In this document: positions 41,889 through 63,991 of the stretch, in pieces | How the letters are laid out: each line of letters starts with the position of its first letter | Numbering within the stretch: the first letter of the stretch is position 1 | NCBI RefSeq assembly: GCF_951230155.1 | Contig: NZ_CATNVD010000001.1 | Coordinates: 310,001 to 374,000, forward strand | Direction: 5' to 3' | From: Parablautia sp. Marseille-Q6255 | GTDB taxonomy: Bacteria; Bacillota; Clostridia; Lachnospirales; Lachnospiraceae | DNA: 64,000 nucleotides | The notes under the pieces: generated by a model | Told to the model about the DNA's origin: nothing | Databases searched by the model: none | The model's input: only the letters and a program-made list of their open reading frames with translations | Translations under genes and position numbers: made by a program

Positions 41889-42923
41889 ATGGCTATTAAT
41901 TTCGTAAAAAAACTGCCGATCCCGGCAGAAGTAAAAAAACAATATCCGCTTTCTGAAAAAGTGGTCCGGATCAAGCAGGAGCGGGACGCTCAGATCCGTG
42001 ATGTCTTTACCGGAAAATCAGATAAATTCCTCCTGATCATCGGACCCTGCTCCGCTGACAATGTGGAGTCCGTCATGGATTACATGCACCGTCTCTGCCG
42101 TGTGCAGGATAAGGTGGGCGACCGGATCATCCTGATCCCGCGCATCTACACCAACAAGCCCCGCACGACCGGCGAAGGCTACAAAGGGCTGATGCATCAG
42201 CCTGACCCTGAAAAAAAACCGGACGTATTTGCCGGTATCGTAGCTATGCGCAAGCTGCACGCAATGGCAATCGAGGAAACCGGTCTTACCGCTGCGGACG
42301 AGATGCTTTACCCGGAAAACTGGCGTTACCTTGACGATCTCCTCTCCTATGTCGCGATCGGTGCCCGCTCTGTCGAGGATCAGCACCACCGGATGACTGT
42401 CAGCGGCATGGACGTACCTGCCGGTATGAAGAACCCGACAAGCGGAGATTTTTCCGTTATGCTCAATTCCGTTGTAGCAGCGCAGGCAAAGCACAACTTT
42501 ATCTACCGCGGGTGGGATGTCAATACGGACGGAAACCCCCTTGCCCATGTCGTGCTGCGCGGCGCTACCAATAAGCACGGAAATACGATCCCGAATTACC
42601 ACTACGAGGATCTTCAGCTCCTGCTTGAGATGTATGAAAAGCGGAATTTGAAAAACCCTGCCGCTATCATTGACACGAACCATTCCAATTCCGGCAAGCG
42701 TTTTCTGGAGCAGATCCGCATCTCTATGGAGATCCTGCACAGCAGGAACTACAACCCCGGCATCAAAAAGCTGGTAAAGGGGCTGATGATCGAAAGCTAC
42801 ATAGAGGACGGCTGCCAGAAAATCGGTGACGGCGAGCTCATCTATGGAAAGTCCATCACAGACCCCTGCCTTGGCTGGGAAAAATCAGAGGCTCTGATCT
42901 ACGACATCTATCGTCAGTGCTGA
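41889..42923 (+). CDS. 3-deoxy-7-phosphoheptulonate synthase, class I alpha (AroF/G/H type)
   Basis: The 344-residue enzyme condenses phosphoenolpyruvate and erythrose 4-phosphate in the first step of the shikimate pathway. Landmarks are LLIIGPCSADN, PRIYTNKPRTTGEGYKG, ARSVEDQHHR, LRGATNKHGNTIPNYHYED and AIIDTNHSNSGKRFLEQ. It is the E. coli-like form, with the N-terminal segment that carries amino-acid feedback regulation in that group. Its last 10 bases overlap the end of the convergent sugar-binding-protein gene. Confidence 0.94.
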   Translation: MAINFVKKLPIPAEVKKQYPLSEKVVRIKQERDAQIRDVFTGKSDKFLLIIGPCSADNVESVMDYMHRLCRVQDKVGDRIILIPRIYTNKPRTTGEGYKGLMHQPDPEKKPDVFAGIVAMRKLHAMAIEETGLTAADEMLYPENWRYLDDLLSYVAIGARSVEDQHHRMTVSGMDVPAGMKNPTSGDFSVMLNSVVAAQAKHNFIYRGWDVNTDGNPLAHVVLRGATNKHGNTIPNYHYEDLQLLLEMYEKRNLKNPAAIIDTNHSNSGKRFLEQIRISMEILHSRNYNPGIKKLVKGLMIESYIEDGCQKIGDGELIYGKSITDPCLGWEKSEALIYDIYRQC

Positions 42924-43945
42924 TACTCTTCTATATTATCTGCCGTTACCTTGGCGTACGGCAGATAAATACAGCGCTCCTTTTCAAAGGACAGCTCCTG
43001 CATCCCTTCTCCGCAGACAAGCGCAACCGCAAGACGCGCCATCGCTCCTGCCTGCCCTTCTTTATCATTATATACTGTGCCGGCAAGCCTTCCGTCCGCT
43101 ACTGCGCGCAGCCCCTCCCGCGTCCCGTCTATACCGAAAAATACAGGAAGCGTAGACTCTGTATAATTCAGCTTTTCATACGCGTCAACTGCTCCCAGCG
43201 CCATATCGTCATTGTTTGCAAGTACCAGCTCTATATCATTACGATACTGCCCGATCATCTGCGTCATACGGTTCTGTGCCTGCGCACGGTTCCAATTCGC
43301 GATCGCGTAACTGAGTTTTTCCAGCCCGATCCCTTTATCCTTTAGTGTATCTACCGCTTTTTCTGTGCGGATGATCGCATCCTGATGGCCAGTCTCTCCC
43401 TCCAGCACGACATACTGTATTTTCCCGTCGTGGTTCCGGTCGATCTGACTGTTCGCGAGGATCGCATCCGCCGCCAGCTCTCCCTGCATCACTCCGGATT
43501 GCTGGGCGTCTGCCCCCACATAATACAGATCGCTCCACTGCATCAGATCCTCCGCCACCGGCTCGCGGTTGAAAAATATGATCGGCACCTCTCTCTCCCG
43601 CGCCAGCTCAATGATCTCAGACGGATTCGTCCGGTCTGCCAGGTTCACACACAGCACATTGCAGCCCGCGTCAAGAAGCTCTCTGACCTGATCGTCCTGC
43701 GTCCGCTGTGACCCTGCCGCATCCTTTTGCATCACTGTAGCACTTAGCTCCTGTGTCTCCATACCGGAAAGCTGCTCTTTAAAGCTTGCGAGCAGCTCAC
43801 TTAAAAACGTATCGCTCTGATTATAGCATGCCACTCCGACCTGAACCGTCATCAGCGGACTGTCCTGCTGTTTTTCACAGCCGCACAGGACCTGCATACA
43901 TGCGAATGTCAGTATTCCAAGCTCCAGCACTGTCTTTTTCTTCAT
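42914..43945 (-). CDS. galactose/glucose-type sugar-binding lipoprotein (MglB-like, normal fold order)
   Basis: A signal with lipobox (FACMQVLCGC) anchors this family 1/Peripla_BP_4 protein. Fold order is canonical: VQVGVACYNQSDTFLSELL, NVLCVNLADRTNPSEIIEL, VPIIFFNREP, YYVGADAQQSGVMQGEL, the Ca2+-type loop DRNHDGKIQY, LEGETGHQDAIIRT, LANNDDMALGAVDA and VFFGIDGTREGLRAV. It is the closest internal reference for the unusual MglB at the window end. It is the last gene of the YesN-YesM transcript and lacks a neighbouring transporter. The ATG at residue 5 of the longest frame is preferred over the upstream GTG. Confidence 0.88.
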   Translation of the reverse strand: MKKKTVLELGILTFACMQVLCGCEKQQDSPLMTVQVGVACYNQSDTFLSELLASFKEQLSGMETQELSATVMQKDAAGSQRTQDDQVRELLDAGCNVLCVNLADRTNPSEIIELAREREVPIIFFNREPVAEDLMQWSDLYYVGADAQQSGVMQGELAADAILANSQIDRNHDGKIQYVVLEGETGHQDAIIRTEKAVDTLKDKGIGLEKLSYAIANWNRAQAQNRMTQMIGQYRNDIELVLANNDDMALGAVDAYEKLNYTESTLPVFFGIDGTREGLRAVADGRLAGTVYNDKEGQAGAMARLAVALVCGEGMQELSFEKERCIYLPYAKVTADNIEEYQH

Positions 43946-43953
43946 ATTCTCCC

Positions 43954-44931
43954 TCACTGGTTCATTGTAAAAATGATTTCCTGATTTTCTTTTGAAAACA
44001 GATTTTCTCTTCTCAGTACCGTATAGGATACCGTCCGATCCTGCATTTCATAGGAGAAAAAACGCTCCATTTTCCGAACTGCCTCCATCAGGCTCTGATA
44101 TCCGACATGGAACTCATCCGGAACGATCAGACACTCCATCTTACCTGCATCCAGGTAATAGACTGCCTCTGTCGAGCAGCCGATCCCGTAGACAAGCGCT
44201 CCATGCAGGTTGTTTGCCAAAGCCTCCTGCCCCGCCATCATTGCGCTGCTATTGTCCATCGCCGCCACAAAATCTACCGGAGCCTGCTGCTGCAGTACGT
44301 TCTTGCCCAGAGAGGACCCAAAGCCTGTGACGGACCACAGGATCTTTCCCCCGTATCCCTCTATCGCCTCGCGAAATCCCCTCTCTCTGTCCGCGGCTGC
44401 CTGAGACTCGGCTGCTTCTGAGACGATCCCGATCATCTTCCCGTCGAGATTTTCCCTGTAGTCAGACAGCAGCTCCAAAGCCAGCTGCCTGCCGATCTCG
44501 TAATTGTCCGGCCCGACAAAGGGCAGTCCATAGACAGCCTCCGAACCGGAAGGGAGCGGACCTGCCAGCACGACCGGCGTCTTTTTTGCCAGTGCCTCCA
44601 GCACTGCCTCTGTCTCCTCCCCCAGGACAGGCTGTATGATCAGCGCATCTGCCCCCAGGTTCAGCTGTGCCTGTGCCAGCTCTCCCAGCTGTGAGGCACT
44701 TAGCCGGTGCTCTGTACTGGCCACAAAAACCTCGACTCCCTGGTCTGCCGCCGCCATTCTCAATCCATATTTAAATGCAGCCCATCTGCTGTCATCCGAA
44801 TCCTGTATGATCACAGAGATCTTGTCCAGCTGCGTGCTGTTCTTTTCCCGGAACATGACAAATGCGACGATCACGATCATAAAAGCCAGCACTGCCTCTG
44901 TCAGGATAAACTCTTTTCTGCTATTCTTCAT
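43954..44931 (-). CDS. membrane-anchored sugar-binding protein, likely sensor partner of YesM
   Basis: An uncleaved N-terminal helix (ILTEAVLAFMIVIVAFVMF) is followed by a Peripla_BP_4/LacI-type binding fold (ISVIIQDSDDSRWAAFKYGL, ADALIIQPVLGEETEAVLEA, TPVVLAGPLPSG, MIGIVSEAAESQAAADRERG). No lipobox. The start codon lies within the end of the kinase gene (11-bp overlap) with AAAGGA upstream. In the XylFII-LytS-YesN system of Clostridium a similar binding protein touches the kinase ectodomain and reports sugar; this gene's position and anchor suggest the same job, by inference. Confidence 0.8.
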   Translation of the reverse strand: MKNSRKEFILTEAVLAFMIVIVAFVMFREKNSTQLDKISVIIQDSDDSRWAAFKYGLRMAAADQGVEVFVASTEHRLSASQLGELAQAQLNLGADALIIQPVLGEETEAVLEALAKKTPVVLAGPLPSGSEAVYGLPFVGPDNYEIGRQLALELLSDYRENLDGKMIGIVSEAAESQAAADRERGFREAIEGYGGKILWSVTGFGSSLGKNVLQQQAPVDFVAAMDNSSAMMAGQEALANNLHGALVYGIGCSTEAVYYLDAGKMECLIVPDEFHVGYQSLMEAVRKMERFFSYEMQDRTVSYTVLRRENLFSKENQEIIFTMNQ

Positions 44932-46792
44932 ATCCGTTTTCCTTTGCCTGATGAATGATCTCTTCCCGGTCAAACATATGCCCCTGCTCCAGAAGCTTTC
45001 GGTTCTCTTCTGTATACGGAACTGCCGGCATACAGATATAGACCGTCGTCCCCACATCCGGCTCACTCTCAATGCGCAGGCCATATTCCTTTCCAAACAG
45101 GATCTGTATCCTGTTATTTACATTTAAGAGGCCCACACCGGAGCCCTGCTTATGCACCCGGGTGCTGTCGGTCAGAAGAAGCTTCGCTTCCTCCTCCGGA
45201 ATACCGATCCCATTGTCCCGAACCGCCAGGACCACTTCCCCGTCTGCGAGCCGTCCCCGGATCTCTATCTCGCCGTCTCCATCCATATCTCTCACCCCAT
45301 AATTGATCGCATTTTCCAGGATCGGCTGCAGAATCAGCTTTACCGTACAGCAGGCTTCTGCCGCCGGATCCACATCAAAGGTGACGATAAAGGAATTGCG
45401 GCAGCGGATTTTCTGGATATTCATATAGCTGCGCGCATGCTGCAGCTCATCCTTTACACTGATCACCGTGCGTCCTTTCGAAAGACTGATCCGGAAAAAT
45501 TTTGCAAGCTGGGACAGCATATACGCCGCCTCATCATTGCGCTGCGCCTCGATCATCCATATGATCGAATCAAGCGCATTGTATAAAAAGTGCGGATTAA
45601 TCTGACTTTGAAGCGCATCCAGCTCGCTTTTGCGTCTCTCATTCTGCTCCCAGACGATTTTTTTCATCAGACCCTCGATCTTTTCATAGGAGTTCTGAAT
45701 CGAATAGCCAAGATGGCGTATCTCCTGCGAGCCTCCGATATAGATCTGCGGTTTTTTTCCTGCTTCATACTCTGTAACGGAGTGGTTCAGCTTCAGGATC
45801 GGTCTGGAAATACGCGTGGATACAATGCGGTTTACGACTACAAGCATCATTGCCATCATCAGGATCAGGATAACAATAAAATATCTGATATCCGCCATAC
45901 CGTGCGTGAACATGGAATACGGGATCACGCCCACCAGCTTCCAGCCCGTGTAGCTGATCGTATTCACAAGCACTTTCCTGCGCTCCCCTTCAAATACCTC
46001 CTCGTACACGCCGTCTTTATAAGAAGCCGCCGCCAGGTTGTTTTCTCTGCGCAGTCCGTCACTGATCGGGATCTGCTGCTGATGATATATGATCTCCCCA
46101 TCGCCGTCACACAGATAAAAATACTGCCCGTTATTTAAGGTATTGATCCGGTTGAGCATTCGCGAGATCGCAGAGTAATCCATATCTACCAGTAAAACTC
46201 CCGGCTGCGAATCGCCGCCCACAGTCAGTTCCACTGCCCTGCTCAAAGAAATCACCCAATTGTACCGAAAGGTTCCGTCATCAAAAAGGTTCTGGATATG
46301 CGGCGTAGAAAAATGCATATTTTCCATCTCATCCATTGCCTGCCTGTACCAGTCCTGTTTCGTCACATCAGGATCTTCCTTCTGAGATGCCACTGGCTCT
46401 GCAGCCAGAAGACTTCCGTATTCATTATAAACAGCAATGCTCTGCAGCTTTTCCTTATGCGCTTCATACAAAAGGTTCAGACCTCTTTGAAAGCTCCTTT
46501 CCTGGCTGGAAAAATCACTCTCTTTGATGACATTGTAATATGCGGCGTCCGATATCTGCCTCATGCTGTTCAGATAATCCTCCAGGCTCTCCCGCGTCTG
46601 CTCCATCAGCTTCTGCGTACTCTGCACGATCTCCTGTCTGGAAAGTGCGGAAAACCTGACATACAGCGCGACCCCGAAGATCAGCATAATAGAAATAGAG
46701 ATCACCGAAAATGCAAGCATGATCGTAGACTGTATCCCCCGGTGCCGCAGCTTTTCCAAATATCTGAAATACCTATCCCTCACTTTTTTCAT
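44921..46792 (-). CDS. YesM/LytS-type sensor histidine kinase
   Basis: The protein has a first membrane helix (IMLAFSVISISIMLIFGVAL), a ~250-residue extracellular dCache-like domain, a second helix (YFIVILILMMAMMLVVVN), a HAMP segment, the His_kinase dimerisation box LQSQINPHFLYNALDSIIWM with the phospho-acceptor His, and a HATPase domain (ILENAINYG, VRDNGIGIP, GSGVGLLNVNNR). It phosphorylates the YesN-type regulator encoded just upstream, with which it overlaps by 20 bp. The exact start is uncertain: the ATG sits one base after CGGAG, and an in-frame GTG three codons later has better spacing. Confidence 0.9.
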   Translation of the reverse strand: MKKVRDRYFRYLEKLRHRGIQSTIMLAFSVISISIMLIFGVALYVRFSALSRQEIVQSTQKLMEQTRESLEDYLNSMRQISDAAYYNVIKESDFSSQERSFQRGLNLLYEAHKEKLQSIAVYNEYGSLLAAEPVASQKEDPDVTKQDWYRQAMDEMENMHFSTPHIQNLFDDGTFRYNWVISLSRAVELTVGGDSQPGVLLVDMDYSAISRMLNRINTLNNGQYFYLCDGDGEIIYHQQQIPISDGLRRENNLAAASYKDGVYEEVFEGERRKVLVNTISYTGWKLVGVIPYSMFTHGMADIRYFIVILILMMAMMLVVVNRIVSTRISRPILKLNHSVTEYEAGKKPQIYIGGSQEIRHLGYSIQNSYEKIEGLMKKIVWEQNERRKSELDALQSQINPHFLYNALDSIIWMIEAQRNDEAAYMLSQLAKFFRISLSKGRTVISVKDELQHARSYMNIQKIRCRNSFIVTFDVDPAAEACCTVKLILQPILENAINYGVRDMDGDGEIEIRGRLADGEVVLAVRDNGIGIPEEEAKLLLTDSTRVHKQGSGVGLLNVNNRIQILFGKEYGLRIESEPDVGTTVYICMPAVPYTEENRKLLEQGHMFDREEIIHQAKENGYEE

Positions 46793-48392
46793 GCTCCGTT
46801 CTGTATTTGGATGGAGATACCCCATAGCGCCGCTTAAATACATAGCTGAAATAATTCGGATCCGCATATCCGACCCTCTTCGCTATAATATAGCTCTTCT
46901 CATTCGTCTCAAGCAGCATCCTTGCCGCCTGCTCCATCCGATAATCCGTCAGATAACCAATAAATGAATTTCCCGTCTCTTTCTTAAAAATAGTGGAAAA
47001 ATATGAATTTGATACACCAAGCGATTCGCATACATGATCCAGAGAAATCTCTTCATCTGCATAATTGCCGCGCACGTACTCTTTTGCCTTTTGTACAAAA
47101 GACTTCGTAGACTGGCTGCGCTCGTTGATCATCAGCTCCCGCATAGACAGACATACACCGCACAGCCATTTTCGCAGCGCCTCCGGCTCCAGATCCAGCA
47201 GCCGGCTGCACAGCTTTCCCATATCACCGGAAAATGCTGCAACCGTCAGCTCATTATTTTCCGCAAACCGATACAGCGCGCTGACCAGCTCAAGCACATC
47301 AATATGGTGCTGCTGCAGCGACTGCTGCGGAAACAGCGTATGCCCCAGATACTGCTCAACCGCTTCCTTTACCTCCTGGGCAGTCCCAAGACGCACCGCC
47401 TTAAACAGCTTTGCCAGATCCGCCTCATTCGCTCCTCCTGCGCCGCTGTTCCCGCGCGGAGCGATCTCCGCTATATTGATCGCTCTCGTAGCTCCATAAA
47501 TCCCGCGGTAAGAAACAGCCTCCCTGGCACCGCTGTATGACTGAGAGAGTTCTAAAAGCTCCCTGCACGCTCTGCCCACTCCAATCGTGACGACAGCGCC
47601 TATGATACGCAGCGCATACCGGCAAAACCGGTCGCACTCATCCGTAAGATCCGCAACCTCGCCCTCATTTTTAAGCTGTGCCAGCAGTACCGTGTTTCCC
47701 AGATAAGAAAAGCATTTTGCACGCCACTTCTCTCCGATCCGCTCCATCACCTGTTTCTGTACAGATGCAGTAAGCAATACCGGATTCATTCCCTCCGGAA
47801 GCTGTCCAGATGATGTATGGACTACAAGGCAGCAGAAAAATGGACCGGAAAAGGAAATCTGGTAATCCGAAAGATATTTTTCCAGATCCTCCTCCCGTAT
47901 GAGCCCTTCCACCAAAGTAGAATAAAAATTCGCCTGCAGCAGCGGCAGAGAATCAAGGTAATACTTTTTCAGGCTTTCTGCATTTCGCTTTTCACTGATC
48001 TCCTGATCCAGCTTGATCTTCATTTGCGTAAATACATTCGTAAGCTCCACAGAATTGACCGGCTTTAAAATATACTCCTCCACCTCCAGATGCACAGCTT
48101 CCTTTGCATATTCGAATTCATCAAAACCGGTAAAAAGCAGGATCTTGGTCGCAGGATATTCTGTCTTGATCCTGTTTGACAGCTCCATCCCGTCCATATA
48201 CGGCATACGGATATCCGTCATCACCACATCCGGCTGAAACTCCTCTACCATTTCAAATGCTTTTACTCCGTTGTTCGCATAGCCGATCACAGAAAAGCCA
48301 AGCCCCTCCCAGTTAATCTTTTTCATAATCGCCTCGATCACTTCTACCTCATCATCCACCAAAAGTACGGTATATCTATATGTTTCTGTCAT
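46773..48392 (-). CDS. YesN-type response regulator with AraC DNA-binding domain
   Basis: The receiver domain starts at YTVLLVDDE and carries the phospho-acceptor Asp in VVMTDIRMPYMDG and the Lys in YILKPVNS. A ~270-residue middle region follows, and the C-terminus has two AraC-type helix-turn-helix units (ISLDHVCESLGVSNSYFSTI; IIAKRVGYADPNYFSYVF). It should activate sugar-transport genes when phosphorylated by the adjacent kinase. Several in-frame starts exist; I chose the ATG that gives the usual receiver N-terminus, but an ATG seven codons upstream (48413) after GCAGGA is possible. Confidence 0.88.
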   Translation of the reverse strand: MTETYRYTVLLVDDEVEVIEAIMKKINWEGLGFSVIGYANNGVKAFEMVEEFQPDVVMTDIRMPYMDGMELSNRIKTEYPATKILLFTGFDEFEYAKEAVHLEVEEYILKPVNSVELTNVFTQMKIKLDQEISEKRNAESLKKYYLDSLPLLQANFYSTLVEGLIREEDLEKYLSDYQISFSGPFFCCLVVHTSSGQLPEGMNPVLLTASVQKQVMERIGEKWRAKCFSYLGNTVLLAQLKNEGEVADLTDECDRFCRYALRIIGAVVTIGVGRACRELLELSQSYSGAREAVSYRGIYGATRAINIAEIAPRGNSGAGGANEADLAKLFKAVRLGTAQEVKEAVEQYLGHTLFPQQSLQQHHIDVLELVSALYRFAENNELTVAAFSGDMGKLCSRLLDLEPEALRKWLCGVCLSMRELMINERSQSTKSFVQKAKEYVRGNYADEEISLDHVCESLGVSNSYFSTIFKKETGNSFIGYLTDYRMEQAARMLLETNEKSYIIAKRVGYADPNYFSYVFKRRYGVSPSKYRTEHEKSEG

Positions 48393-48421
48393 TTCCTTGC
48401 ATCTATCTCCCATAATTTCCT

Positions 48422-48442
48422 GCGGCGCATGACGCACGCCGC
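48422..48442 (-). other. 5' hairpin in the YesN leader
   Basis: GCGGCG and CGCCGC pair around a 9-nt loop within about 20 bases of the likely transcription start. It lies just before the GCAGGA ribosome site and could affect translation or mRNA stability. Confidence 0.45.
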
Positions 48443-59461: not shown

Positions 59462-61117
59462 TTATTTCTTTCTCACATATTTCAGGCAGTCAAGTGTTAC
59501 CGCTACCAGGATGATGATACCGGAGAATACGAACTGAAGGTTCGTGTCGATACCAAGGATCGTCAGAGAGTAGGTCAGTGCTGTAAAGATCAGCACGCCG
59601 ACTACAACACCTGAGATCTTACCGATACCACCTGTAAAGGATACACCGCCGACTACGCAGGCTGCGATCGCATCTGTCTCCCAGCCCTGTCCATACGCAG
59701 CAGAACCAGAACCAACCATACGCGCACACTCCAGCCATGCGCCGAAGCCATAGAGGATACCTGCAAGGATGAATGCACCCATTGTTACGCGGAATACGGA
59801 GATACCGGAAACAGCTGCTGCCTCTGGGTTTCCGCCTACTGCGTAAAGATTCTTACCAAATGTTGTCTTGTTCCAGATAAACCATACGATCACAACTGCT
59901 ACAACGGCCCAGATGATGATCGTCGGGAATCCGTTGATCTTCGGGATGATCATACCCGGAATGGATGACTCGATCGCACCAAAGGATACACCCTTTGTCG
60001 CATATGTAACAAGACCGAAGATCATCAGCATGTTTGCCATAGTTGAGATAAACGGATGCATCTTGAACTTGGCTGTAAAGAAGCCTGCCAGTGACGTAAA
60101 GCAGGTACACAGGATAATACACATGATCAGAGCGAAGAACATGCGCACTACGACCGGAAGTCCTGTAAAGTCAAATACATGTCCGAATACTGCACCTGTA
60201 TTGATACCCTGATGCATGATGATCGTCGCTGTTGTCATACCCATACCTACCATACGACCGATGGAAAGGTCTGTACCAGTCAGGAGGATCAGTCCTGCAA
60301 CACCGAGCGCAAGGAACATTCTCGGAGACGCCTGCTGAAGGATGTTGAGTACGTTGTTGTAGGTAAGCAGCGGTGTATGTTTTACGATCGGTGTGATGAT
60401 ACACAGCGCTACGAAGATCAGAACAATCGCAATATACAGACCGTTTTTCAGAAGGAACTCTCTGCGGTTGAACGTATACTTGTAGTTTTCCCACTTCTGA
60501 GCCCGCGTCTCAAGGAAGGTAAACTTCGACATGCGCAGCATATCGATCAGATGATACTTATAGGTATAAGCAGCATGCCGTCTGTCCTTGATCTCCTGCA
60601 GTTCCTGCTCCAGCTTCACCTTTGCGTCAAACAGACGGTTCTTGTATACATACTTCTCATCCTTCTGCTCCTGGTGATCTGTCAGCTTCGCTGCAGCTGC
60701 CTGATGCTCTTTTTCGAGTTTTGCAACATTTTCTTTATATCTTTCTTTTGCCTTTACTTTCTCCTGCGCACAGCTCTCCAGCACCGGCTGATAATACTCT
60801 TTATCAAAGTGCGCTTTCAGATACGCCTCTGCGTCTGCGATCAGCCTGGAGATCTCGCCCTTATTCTTTTCTTCAACTGCTTTTGCCTTCTGCAGCTCGC
60901 TGCGCATGCTTGCCGTCTGCGCCTCGCGCTCTTCTTTTGTCAGGCTGCGGTCTCTCTTTAAGCCTTCGATACTGTTTAAAAGGCTGACAACCTTATCTGT
61001 ACCGTCTACACGAAGGCTGTCGATCTTTTTCTGGATATTACCCACATATTCCTCGATCGGCCTGCGCAGCGTAAGCTCCTGCTCTGCCGTAAGGATTTTC
61101 CCGTTTCCGTTTGCCAT
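59462..61117 (-). CDS. mglC: galactose/methylgalactoside-type ABC permease with long N-terminal coiled coil
   Basis: The C-terminal ~330 residues are a complete RbsC/MglC permease (FLALGVAGLILLTGTDLSIG, GFFTAKFKMHPFISTMANML, ECARMVGSGSAAYGQGWETD, AIAACVVGGVSFTGGIGKIS). Ahead of the first membrane helix (YIAIVLIFVALCIITPIV, about residue 225) lies a highly charged ~220-residue cytosolic segment with heptad-like stretches (KVKLEQELQEIKDRRHAAYT, EREAQTASMRSELQKAKAVE). Standard MglC is about 336 residues. Nothing indicates a frameshift or fused separate gene. It pairs with the ATPase gene 18 bp upstream. Confidence 0.88.
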   Translation of the reverse strand: MANGNGKILTAEQELTLRRPIEEYVGNIQKKIDSLRVDGTDKVVSLLNSIEGLKRDRSLTKEEREAQTASMRSELQKAKAVEEKNKGEISRLIADAEAYLKAHFDKEYYQPVLESCAQEKVKAKERYKENVAKLEKEHQAAAAKLTDHQEQKDEKYVYKNRLFDAKVKLEQELQEIKDRRHAAYTYKYHLIDMLRMSKFTFLETRAQKWENYKYTFNRREFLLKNGLYIAIVLIFVALCIITPIVKHTPLLTYNNVLNILQQASPRMFLALGVAGLILLTGTDLSIGRMVGMGMTTATIIMHQGINTGAVFGHVFDFTGLPVVVRMFFALIMCIILCTCFTSLAGFFTAKFKMHPFISTMANMLMIFGLVTYATKGVSFGAIESSIPGMIIPKINGFPTIIIWAVVAVVIVWFIWNKTTFGKNLYAVGGNPEAAAVSGISVFRVTMGAFILAGILYGFGAWLECARMVGSGSAAYGQGWETDAIAACVVGGVSFTGGIGKISGVVVGVLIFTALTYSLTILGIDTNLQFVFSGIIILVAVTLDCLKYVRKK

Positions 61118-61135: not shown

Positions 61136-62644
61136 TTATAGGTATTTTGCACTGAGTCTCAAAAGTTCTTCCTGATTCGTCTCTTTCGTATTCACAATAC
61201 CGGAAAGACGTCCGTTGGACATAACGCCGATACGATTTGTAATACCGAGGATCTCCGGCATCTCAGAAGAAACAACTATGATCGTCTTTCCCTGCTTTGC
61301 CATATTGATGATCAGCTCATAAATCTCATATTTTGCACCGACATCAATGCCTCGTGTCGGCTCGTCCATCATGAACACCTTCGGCTCACGCTCCAGCCAT
61401 TTTCCAAAAATAACCTTCTGCTGGTTTCCTCCGGAAAGGCTTGAGATCATGTCCTCCGGTCCCATACATTTTGTATGCATGATCTTGATCTCTTTTGAGG
61501 TCGCTTTTACCATCTTCTGATCAGACAGCGCCAGTCCCGCTTTGTACTGCTCCAGATTCGCGATCGTCGTATTGAAGGTCAGGTCACCCTTTAAGAAGAG
61601 TCCGTTCGCCTTTCTCTCCTCCGTGATCATCGCAAAACCATGATCCATCGCTTCCTTGGCACTGTTGAAATTCATCAGCCGGTTGTTGAAATACACACGG
61701 CCTGCCGCTCTGGTACGGACGCCAAAGATCGTCTCAAGAAGCTCTGTACGGCCTGCACCTACGAGTCCATACAGACCAAAAATCTCTCCCTCCCGTACAT
61801 CAAAGGTGATATCCTGCAGATGCGGCTCAAACTTTGTGGAAAGGTGCTGGATCGACAGGATCGGCTCCTTCGGTGTATTGTCCACCGGCGGGAAACGATT
61901 CTCAAGAGAACGTCCTACCATTGCTGCGATCAGCTCATTCATATCTGTTTCTTTTGAGCTTTTTGTCATGACCAGATTACCGTCACGCAGTACGGAAATC
62001 TCATCACAGATCTCAAAGATCTCATCCATCTTATGAGAAATGTAGATCAGTGAGATCCCCTGCTCCTTGAGCATACGCATCATTCCGAAAAGCTTCTCTA
62101 CCTCCTGTACGGTCAGGGACGAGGTAGGCTCATCCAGAACGATTACCTTTGCATTATAGGAGATCGCCTTTGCGATCTCACACATCTGCCGCTGTGAAAC
62201 AGACATATTTCTCATCGGCTGTGTCAGGTTTACGGTCATGCCAAGCTTTCTGAAAAGCTCAGACGCTTCTTTTTTCATTCTGCCCTCATCGACTATCCCC
62301 ATCGAGTTGACCGGATAGCGGCCGAGAAACAGATTATCGATCACGTTGCGCTCCAGACACTGGTTCAACTCCTGATGCACCATCGCGATACCGTTTTCAA
62401 GAGCATCCTTCGGACCTGAGAAGCTTACTTCCTTTCCATCAAGGAAGATGCTTCCCTCATCCTTCTGGTATGTACCAAAAAGACATTTCATCATTGTTGA
62501 CTTACCGGCGCCATTTTCTCCCATGAGTCCCATAACCGTGCCGCGCTTCACATTCAGATTGATGTGATCGAGGACCCGGTTGCGTCCAAAGGACTTGCTC
62601 ATGCCGCGTATCGATAAGACAATATCATCTTTCTTATCTGCCAT
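61136..62644 (-). CDS. mglA: sugar ABC transporter, double ATP-binding protein (MglA type)
   Basis: The 502-residue protein has two fused ABC domains, as in MglA, RbsA and XylG. The first has Walker A GLMGENGAGKST, signature MSVSQRQMCEIAKAI and Walker B VIVLDEPTSSLT. The second has degenerate Walker A GLYGLVGAGRTEL, signature LSGGNQQKVIFGKWL and VFMMDEPTRGID. It powers sugar import through MglC. AGGAG seven bases upstream supports the ATG at residue 15 of the longest frame. Confidence 0.93.
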   Translation of the reverse strand: MADKKDDIVLSIRGMSKSFGRNRVLDHINLNVKRGTVMGLMGENGAGKSTMMKCLFGTYQKDEGSIFLDGKEVSFSGPKDALENGIAMVHQELNQCLERNVIDNLFLGRYPVNSMGIVDEGRMKKEASELFRKLGMTVNLTQPMRNMSVSQRQMCEIAKAISYNAKVIVLDEPTSSLTVQEVEKLFGMMRMLKEQGISLIYISHKMDEIFEICDEISVLRDGNLVMTKSSKETDMNELIAAMVGRSLENRFPPVDNTPKEPILSIQHLSTKFEPHLQDITFDVREGEIFGLYGLVGAGRTELLETIFGVRTRAAGRVYFNNRLMNFNSAKEAMDHGFAMITEERKANGLFLKGDLTFNTTIANLEQYKAGLALSDQKMVKATSKEIKIMHTKCMGPEDMISSLSGGNQQKVIFGKWLEREPKVFMMDEPTRGIDVGAKYEIYELIINMAKQGKTIIVVSSEMPEILGITNRIGVMSNGRLSGIVNTKETNQEELLRLSAKYL

Positions 62645-62703
62645 TTTTTTACTCCTGTATACATGGTTTACTGTGTTTTCATACAAATTTTCCCGAACAA
62701 AAG

Positions 62704-62755: not shown

Positions 62756-63991
62756 TTACTGATTAAGCAGAGCTGTGTAAGAAGCTGCGTTGTCTGTCTT
62801 AACCATGTTGATCGCAAATGCATCATACTGGCTCGGGTTTCCAAGACGGTTTGTAATGTTGGACTCTGTCTGTCCGTCACCGCCGATGTATTCAACCTCA
62901 AGGTTCAGAATGTCATCATAGTTCTGAAGCAGCGGCTGGTATGTGGAGCTCAGGAAGTTATCAGCTGCATTGTAGATATTGAGCCATACCTTCTTAACCG
63001 GTGATGTAGCCTCATCCAGCTGGTTGGATACCGGCTCATAAACCTTTGTAGAATCTGTGAACTCTTCGTAGTTCTCAGCTGTAACTGCTACGTTCAGTGC
63101 ATAGTAGGAACGCTGCTCCTCGTTGTATACATATACATCCTCAGAAAGAACATTGCCTGCCTCATCTGCTGTACCGATACCTGTGTCAATATCAACACCG
63201 TCAAGAGCGTTACGAAGCACACGAAGTGTCAGGTAAGCCTGTACGTCTGCATGCTGGCTGATCGTTCCGCCGTATCCCTCTGCGATCGCTGCTACTGCAT
63301 CGTTGTTTGCATCGTATCCGAATGTCGGAACCTTGTTATCTTTTGACCATGCGTTGAACATGGACATTCCCATACCATCGTTGTTGGAAACTACTACATC
63401 GATCTGATCGCCGAAAGAAGAAGACCATGTACCGATCGCATTTCCTGCTGTAGCTGCATCCCATGTAGCACCTGCAGAGTTCTTCATCTCCTGAGAAGCC
63501 AGCTCACGAACTGTATATGTTGTTCCGTCAACTTCCAGTGTACCATCCTGAACAACTGTTGCAGAACCGTCTGTATTTGTACCAACCGGCTCGCTGTTGA
63601 TGTTGCCGTCTTTGTCTACGCCTGTGCCGAGAGCCTTGCGGACACCTCTTGTACGTGCGATAGAATCGTTATGTCCGATATCGCCGATTGCCAGAACATA
63701 TCCGATCACACCGTCACCATTACGGTCAATCGTTGCCGCATTTGCCTTGATGTAATCAAGAACCATCGTACCCTGAAGTTCTGCACCCTGATTTGCATCA
63801 AAGCCTACATAATATGTATTGTCGTTGAAGGAAAGCGCTGCCATATCGAGCTCACCTGTAGAGCTGTTAGACGGCTGGCGGTTAAACCATACGAGCGGCT
63901 TATCCTTGTTTGCCACTTCGCCCTCTGCGGAAGCTGTAAGGGAAAGACCCATAACTGCTGCCATTGTCAATACAAATAATTTCTTTTTCAT
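62756..63991 (-). CDS. mglB: galactose-type substrate-binding protein, apparently circularly permuted MglB
   Basis: The 411-residue exported protein has a signal peptide (LFVLTMAAVMGLSLTASA, no lipobox). The mature part begins at what is normally mid-lobe: PLVWFNRQP at residues 32-40, YYVGFDANQGAELQG at ~60-74, Ca2+-type loop DRNGDGVIGY at ~89, GDIGHNDSIARTR, then VVVSNNDGMGMSMF and VPTFGYDANNDAV. After the usual end of the fold, residues ~333-411 contain VWLNIYNAADNFLSSTY and DAFAINMVKTDNAASYTAL, which match the first strand-helix unit of normal MglB (VTIYKYDDNFMS, ALAINLVDPAAAG). The fold is therefore complete but re-ordered. An extra ~40-residue insert follows residue 122. The gene heads the operon; its ribosome site and promoter lie beyond the window. 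Confidence 0.85.
   Translation of the reverse strand: MKKKLFVLTMAAVMGLSLTASAEGEVANKDKPLVWFNRQPSNSSTGELDMAALSFNDNTYYVGFDANQGAELQGTMVLDYIKANAATIDRNGDGVIGYVLAIGDIGHNDSIARTRGVRKALGTGVDKDGNINSEPVGTNTDGSATVVQDGTLEVDGTTYTVRELASQEMKNSAGATWDAATAGNAIGTWSSSFGDQIDVVVSNNDGMGMSMFNAWSKDNKVPTFGYDANNDAVAAIAEGYGGTISQHADVQAYLTLRVLRNALDGVDIDTGIGTADEAGNVLSEDVYVYNEEQRSYYALNVAVTAENYEEFTDSTKVYEPVSNQLDEATSPVKKVWLNIYNAADNFLSSTYQPLLQNYDDILNLEVEYIGGDGQTESNITNRLGNPSQYDAFAINMVKTDNAASYTALLNQ

Follow-up and report, generated by a model that had tools for sequence, protein, structure and literature searches.

A circularly permuted MglB-type sugar-binding protein without a lipobox in a Lachnospiraceae genome

Results

The permuted gene and its neighbours

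The window, i.e. the whole stretch of 64,000 nucleotides of Parablautia sp. Marseille-Q6255 DNA analysed here, encodes close to its end an MglB-type sugar-binding protein, an MglA-type ATPase and an MglC-type permease (Table 1). The reading frame of the binding protein is complete and open, starts with ATG 9 bases from the window end and is located at C1:372759-373991 in the parent genome. The MglA frame is listed from TTG; an internal ATG at MADKKDD is the likelier start. The gene upstream of the permuted mglB resembles ferritin by reading. A sensor cluster at 42914-48437 encodes a response regulator, a histidine kinase, a membrane-anchored binding protein and an MglB-like lipoprotein (names partly assigned by reading). 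Similar sensor genes are found upstream of the permuted operon in the public loci L045, L069 and L075. Among 62 loci with 3.5 kb of upstream sequence, a kinase was present in six, a regulator in five and an MglB-like gene in four, one of them on the other strand.

Table 1. Features in the window, with coordinates in window positions
Feature	Position	Strand	Basis
Circularly permuted MglB-type sugar-binding protein, 411 aa	62756..63991	(-)	blastp, Pfam, PDB match, profiles, re-ordered alignment
Signal peptide, residues 1-22, signal peptidase I type, ends in T-A-S-A before E	63926..63991	(-)	sequence and homologues; cleavage predicted
Residues 31-312, corresponding to the second part of lobe N and all of MglB that follows	63056..63901	(-)	alignments, profile
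Additional connector (residues 313-332), which probably corresponds to the 'fourth hinge' span of Tp0684	62996..63055	(-)	PMC4990184 and alignments
Residues 333-411, moved first unit of MglB	62759..62995	(-)	PF18610 on 333-402, blastp, profiles
MglA-type ATPase, next gene	61136..62686	(-)	NF008215 666 bits, under cut-off 828
MglC-type permease, 551 aa	59462..61117	(-)	NF007014 273 bits, under cut-off 386
MglC N-terminal extension, residues 1-215	60473..61117	(-)	comparison with MglC of E. coli and of L093
Canonical-order MglB-like lipoprotein (lipobox CGC by eye), outside the permuted operon	42914..43957	(-)	Pfam, family profiles, reading

Order of the MglB segments

Residues 31-312 of the permuted protein correspond to MglB from about residue 105 on, and residues 333-411 to approximately the first 90 residues of MglB. 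In blastp against E. coli MglB (sequence taken from MG1655), residues 7-265 were aligned to MglB 77-298 (E 9e-25) and residues 334-408 to MglB 27-100 (27.7% identity, E 0.14 for this part alone). With the canonical homologue from the same window, residues 29-311 matched 122-345 and residues 330-349 matched 33-54 (E 0.12). In Pfam, Peripla_BP_4 covered residues 57-265 with profile positions 94-256 only, the first 93 positions being missing, and PF18610 (Peripla_BP_7) scored 142.7 bits on residues 333-402 (cut-off 36.8). The NF011924 equivalog for canonical MglB reached 95.7 bits, compared to a curated cut-off of 420, in two stretches and not collinear over the whole length. After re-ordering, 23/72 positions of the moved unit and 86/225 positions of the remainder were identical to E. 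coli MglB. No equivalent of the first unit was found before residue 32, a stretch made up of the signal peptide and some nine further residues; this agrees with the preliminary description, which was made from the sequence alone and had proposed a circular permutation rather than a truncation. A truncation is ruled out since every MglB unit occurs once, in an order that is swapped in blastp, Pfam and profiles alike. The boundaries proposed there (23-332 and 333-411) were also correct.

A canonical MglB profile (HMM) was built from 16 MglB-like sequences; 17 had been collected, of which L058 was excluded as too distant. The start of this profile falls at the C-terminal end in all 100 distinct homologues, the window copy included. 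The HMM of the first unit scored 7.0-17.1 bits (median 15.0) on the true C-terminal units of these homologues. The best control scores were 6.9 bits for 500 shuffled sequences, 0.2 bits for 100 reversed ones and 3.6 bits for 600 other windows of the same proteins (496, 98 and 548 of which, respectively, were given any score); the best shuffle is close to the weakest true unit, which counts against the reading as a permutation. A profile of the re-ordered homologues spans the artificial junction in E. coli MglB (profile positions 5-174 on residues 27-190, 48.5 bits). It covers residues 38-212 of L093 in one piece (70.1 bits), compared to two pieces (42.9 and 15.9 bits) with the native order. 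Seven other E. coli proteins (RbsB, XylF, AlsB, AraF, YtfQ, RbsR and GalS) scored 5.1 bits or less each against the re-ordered profile. Alone, the moved-unit profile is weak on single canonical sequences, with 5.9 bits for E. coli MglB and 19.5 bits for the best, L093; an out-of-place match in L058 (7.3 bits) scored higher than E. coli MglB. L093, a canonical-order MglB-like protein encoded next to an MglC without extension, is a candidate for the nearest unpermuted relative of the permuted family.

Ten sugar-contacting residues (N37, H107, D109, R113, W177, N204, D227, Q246, D344 and F346), mapped by hand from table 2 of PMC4990184 onto the 5jx2 alignment, are invariant in 100 of 100 homologues. 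D344 and F346 belong to the moved unit and correspond to D14 and F16 of E. coli MglB; the eight others (N37 to Q246) and the Ca2+ site lie within residues 31-312. The side-chain ligands of Ca2+ (D89, N91, D93 and D198) are invariant as well, with the exception of one N91D.

Operon structure and distribution

Among the best 80 public loci, the best segments are 78-93% identical, and the permuted order is the same in all 80. The downstream sequence is long enough to judge the gene order in 72 loci, and 69 of them show B-A-C; in L067, L069 and L078, MglA is absent from the list of open reading frames or split. All 75 loci in which the permuted MglB is paired with an MglC within reach encode the extension of about 215 residues, the MglC gene being frameshifted in L018 and L069 and cut by the end of the locus in L033, L045 and L071; L032, L054 and L074 do not have about residues 39-84 of the extension. 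The MglC proteins of E. coli (336 aa) and L093 (340 aa), in contrast, do not carry it. The extension is charged (43 K/R and 38 D/E) and has no transmembrane-like segment. No family was found for it, the weak coiled-coil matches being chance-like (best E 0.029 in Pfam and 0.0052 in PDB).

PF18610 was detected in 39 of 348 Lachnospiraceae genomes and in 2 of 398 genomes of a phylum sample, the own genome being included in both counts. Within the own genus, 4 of 35 other members searched (G004, G018, G023 and G028) gave strong matches, one of the four being partial, a patchy presence suggesting that the gene was lost often or moved between species. An intermediate with PF18610 in the canonical N-terminal position was not found among 31 loci retrieved from the 40 genomes with a match; each of these loci aligns with the permuted query up to residues 409-411.

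Lipobox state of the permuted MglB

The N-terminal region of the window copy (SLTASAEGEVANKDKPLV) contains no cysteine, ends in an A-S-A site and lacks the linker seen in homologues that have a lipobox. By pattern and by reading, it has no lipobox, the feature for tethering to the membrane. A lipobox-like cysteine motif is present in 90 of 100 distinct homologues and absent in 10. In the homologues with a lipobox (e.g. LTAC), this linker comprises 17-59 residues, has a high content of Ser, Thr, Gly, Asp or Glu and lies ahead of the mature protein. The automatic listing gave 16 of 99 distinct N-terminal regions without lipobox, six of which have a clear one; the published Gram-positive lipoprotein pattern matched 97 of 116 rows, and three of the other 19 (L049, L131 and L114) show a lipobox by eye. 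On the tree, the lipobox state needs five changes. Since a single clade was not rejected (p-AU 0.555 with 10 rows and 0.752 with 7 rows), several separate losses of the lipobox are not claimed. From these features, the window copy seems to have lost its lipid anchor.

In Murimonas intestini (L029, with the N-terminal region of L123 of G702), TAYG is found where others have TACG, and the linker is kept. Here, the lipobox cysteine seems to have been lost recently; the L029 record is flagged as unverified contamination.

Lipobox state of other binding proteins

In the own genome, 42 loci were read by eye (30 of 37 Peripla_BP_4 matches and 12 of 12 SBP_bac_8 matches). Four of these encode LacI-type regulators, two membrane-anchored proteins and one a permease fusion, and another is of unclear type. 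This leaves 34 loci. In 30 of them, the signal ends in an A-x-A-type site and shows no lipobox; the other four (L144, L154, L164 and L179) have the appearance of lipoproteins. The MglB-like protein of the sensor cluster is among the few lipoproteins that remain in this reading. Automatic classifiers differ from this reading in that L167, L180 and L183 are called lipoproteins; with the published pattern, L183 is counted as a lipoprotein, but L154 and L179 are not.

SBP_bac_8 proteins matched the pattern in 9 of 67 cases in the own genus, 2 of 16 in G657 and G524, 5 of 11 in G702, 21 of 26 in other Lachnospiraceae and 22 of 25 in other families of the order. Of 151 loci retrieved, 145 enter this count, one being a duplicate and five lacking a profile match; the loci were mostly taken from the top of each listing, so that they are not a random sample. 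Among the nine matches of the own genus, a clear lipobox is seen in L206, L207, L210 and L212; in the others (L183, L216, L222, L233 and L307), an A-x-A site comes after a cysteine that lies within or close to the hydrophobic segment, so that these may be false matches. Of eight non-matches among the relatives, L245, L273, L277 and L315 show a lipobox by eye, L275 and L276 are permease fusions, L238 has an open 5' end and L251 a membrane anchor.

With regard to the lipobox, the permuted MglB agrees with the state of its genome. It has no lipobox in G000, G004, G023, G028, G657 and G524, and has one in G587, G604, G616, G669, G746, G758 and G766. In G702, the permuted MglB is without lipobox and the other binding proteins are mixed. 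Four of the six genomes without lipobox share one genus and are thus not independent, and the number of proteins read per genome is small (one each in G028 and G766, two each in G669 and G758). Lgt and Lsp are encoded in the own genome. No match to Omp85 and none to SLH was found in this genome (95.67% complete). The former indicates that an outer membrane is probably not present; with neither of the two found, an outer membrane or an SLH-type surface layer was rejected as the holder of the binding proteins.

Discussion

A known permuted family

The best PDB matches of the window protein, 5jx2 (E 7e-93), 6bgd and 6bgc, bear the name 'glucose/galactose-binding lipoprotein' and are collinear with it over residues 27/28-409; the sequences of 6bgc and 6bgd are near-identical to that of 5jx2. 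The latter is TpMglB-2 (Tp0684) of Treponema pallidum, described in 2016 (PMC4990184). Tp0684 is reported there to be circularly permuted, with the strand order 5-4-6-1-2-3 compared to 2-1-3-4-5-6 in MglB. In the crystal, both termini are in one lobe, a fourth crossover is present, and the C-terminal segment contributes strands to the lobe N sheet. Glucose is bound, as determined by calorimetry and fluorimetry, in preference to galactose, and the ligand changes the conformation. Homologues were described in treponemes and in Gram-positive, often gut, bacteria, and the class 'Type Ic/Cluster Bc' was proposed (PMC4990184).

The window protein shares with Tp0684 the permuted order along residues 28-409, the positions of the sugar contacts and the adjacent transporter genes (the last according to PMC4990184). 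As in that class, the first three lobe N strands are found at the C-terminal end and the core at the N-terminal end, judged by sequence order with strands taken from 5jx2 by homology; PF18610 at the C-terminal end, a family criterion of our own and not of PMC4990184, is present as well. Gut homologues with PF18610, such as those of Claveliimonas bilis (L013), Blautia hansenii (L065) and [Ruminococcus] torques (L028), keep the same order. Two differences are seen: Tp0684 is a lipoprotein, whereas the window copy has no lipobox, and Tp0684 has an asparagine (N311) where the window protein (position 344) and E. coli have aspartate. E. coli MglB shares the units, sugar contacts and Ca2+ site, but has the canonical order, no connector and a true periplasm around it. 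The permutation is real and, as the collinearity with Tp0684 shows, already known in kind. To call it unusual, as in the preliminary description, is fair with regard to binding proteins as a whole; it is not new, as the Tp0684/MglB-2 family had been published (PMC4990184) and has a Pfam domain of its own.

We assign a probability of about 0.93 to the reading that the window protein serves an MglBAC-type ABC importer as solute-binding protein and belongs to the permuted Type Ic/Cluster Bc (Tp0684/MglB-2) family. On sequence grounds, the operon most likely imports glucose or galactose. The first 90 or so MglB residues, forming the first lobe N strands, have moved behind the C-terminal end via a short connector, which would place both termini in lobe N; the two-lobe fold, as expected from 5jx2, would be rebuilt from the same units. 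D-glucose and/or galactose would be held in the cleft by the ten residues of E. coli MglB type, with the lobes closing, and the bound sugar would be passed to MglC and MglA.

Alternative readings and origin

An artefact of assembly or annotation, such as a rearranged contig or a split gene, might be considered because the genome is a draft of 40 contigs; its probability is negligible, as it is refuted by the agreement of all 80 of the best public loci, two of which (L013 and L035) are titled complete genomes, and the solved structure 5jx2 has the same order. It is also very unlikely that the permuted protein serves mainly as ligand-binding protein of a sensor or chemoreceptor and not as a transporter subunit. 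A chemoreceptor role was discussed for Tp0684 (PMC4990184), and a sensor cluster with a canonical MglB-like protein is encoded at 42.9-48.4 kb, but this cluster thereby has an MglB-like protein of its own, and MglA and MglC lie downstream of the permuted gene in nearly all loci.

The C-terminal segment might, furthermore, stem from another gene and have converged on the shape of the first MglB unit. This alternative was raised for Tp0684, whose C-terminal part was given as 13% identical and without significant homology in PMC4990184, and the low scores of the moved-unit profile on most single canonical sequences would fit it. On the other hand, the first-unit profile matches all 100 homologues above the controls, the re-ordered profile crosses the junction in MglB proteins, nearly a third of the moved unit is identical to E. 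coli MglB, and both sugar contacts of this segment are kept. Taken together, the sequence evidence argues against an origin from another gene, which we regard as improbable by a wide margin; another type I binding protein as the source is rejected for the seven E. coli proteins compared. For the moved segment as MglB's own first unit, the most likely origin is a gene duplication after which the outer parts of the two copies were lost; this would have occurred once, in the family ancestor, and no intermediate was seen. Later horizontal sharing of the permuted family was suggested in PMC4990184.

Loss of the lipid anchor

The chances are even, in our estimate, that sugar-type ABC binding proteins, the permuted MglB among them, were switched as a class from lipoproteins to unanchored proteins secreted via signal peptidase I in this Lachnospiraceae genus. 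This reading covers two Pfam families of binding proteins, and the lipobox and signal calls behind it rest on patterns and reading. A literature search on missing lipoboxes and non-lipidated binding proteins returned no report of such a switch, which is weak evidence, most subscription journals being outside its scope. Tethering, which is common in the class but does not define it, was put forward in PMC4990184 as what may have driven the permuted topology. A permuted topology without lipobox speaks against tethering being needed now, though not against a role in the origin of the permutation.

What this analysis adds to the 2016 paper is the evidence against an origin of the moved segment from another gene, and the apparent loss of the anchor in the window copy as part of a wider pattern; this loss, in a gut-bacterial copy, is less expected than the permutation. 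The permuted MglB represents a clear and verifiable example of a natural circular permutation that has been maintained across a whole transporter family. By linking the moved unit to MglB itself, the sequences address an issue that the 2016 paper had left open. The loss of the anchor raises the question of how a bacterium without a detected outer-membrane marker retains its nutrient-binding proteins. If the switch is true, the permuted fold would be kept without a tether, which weakens tethering as the reason for the topology, and the cells would either hold free binding proteins by some means or use them as shed scavengers.
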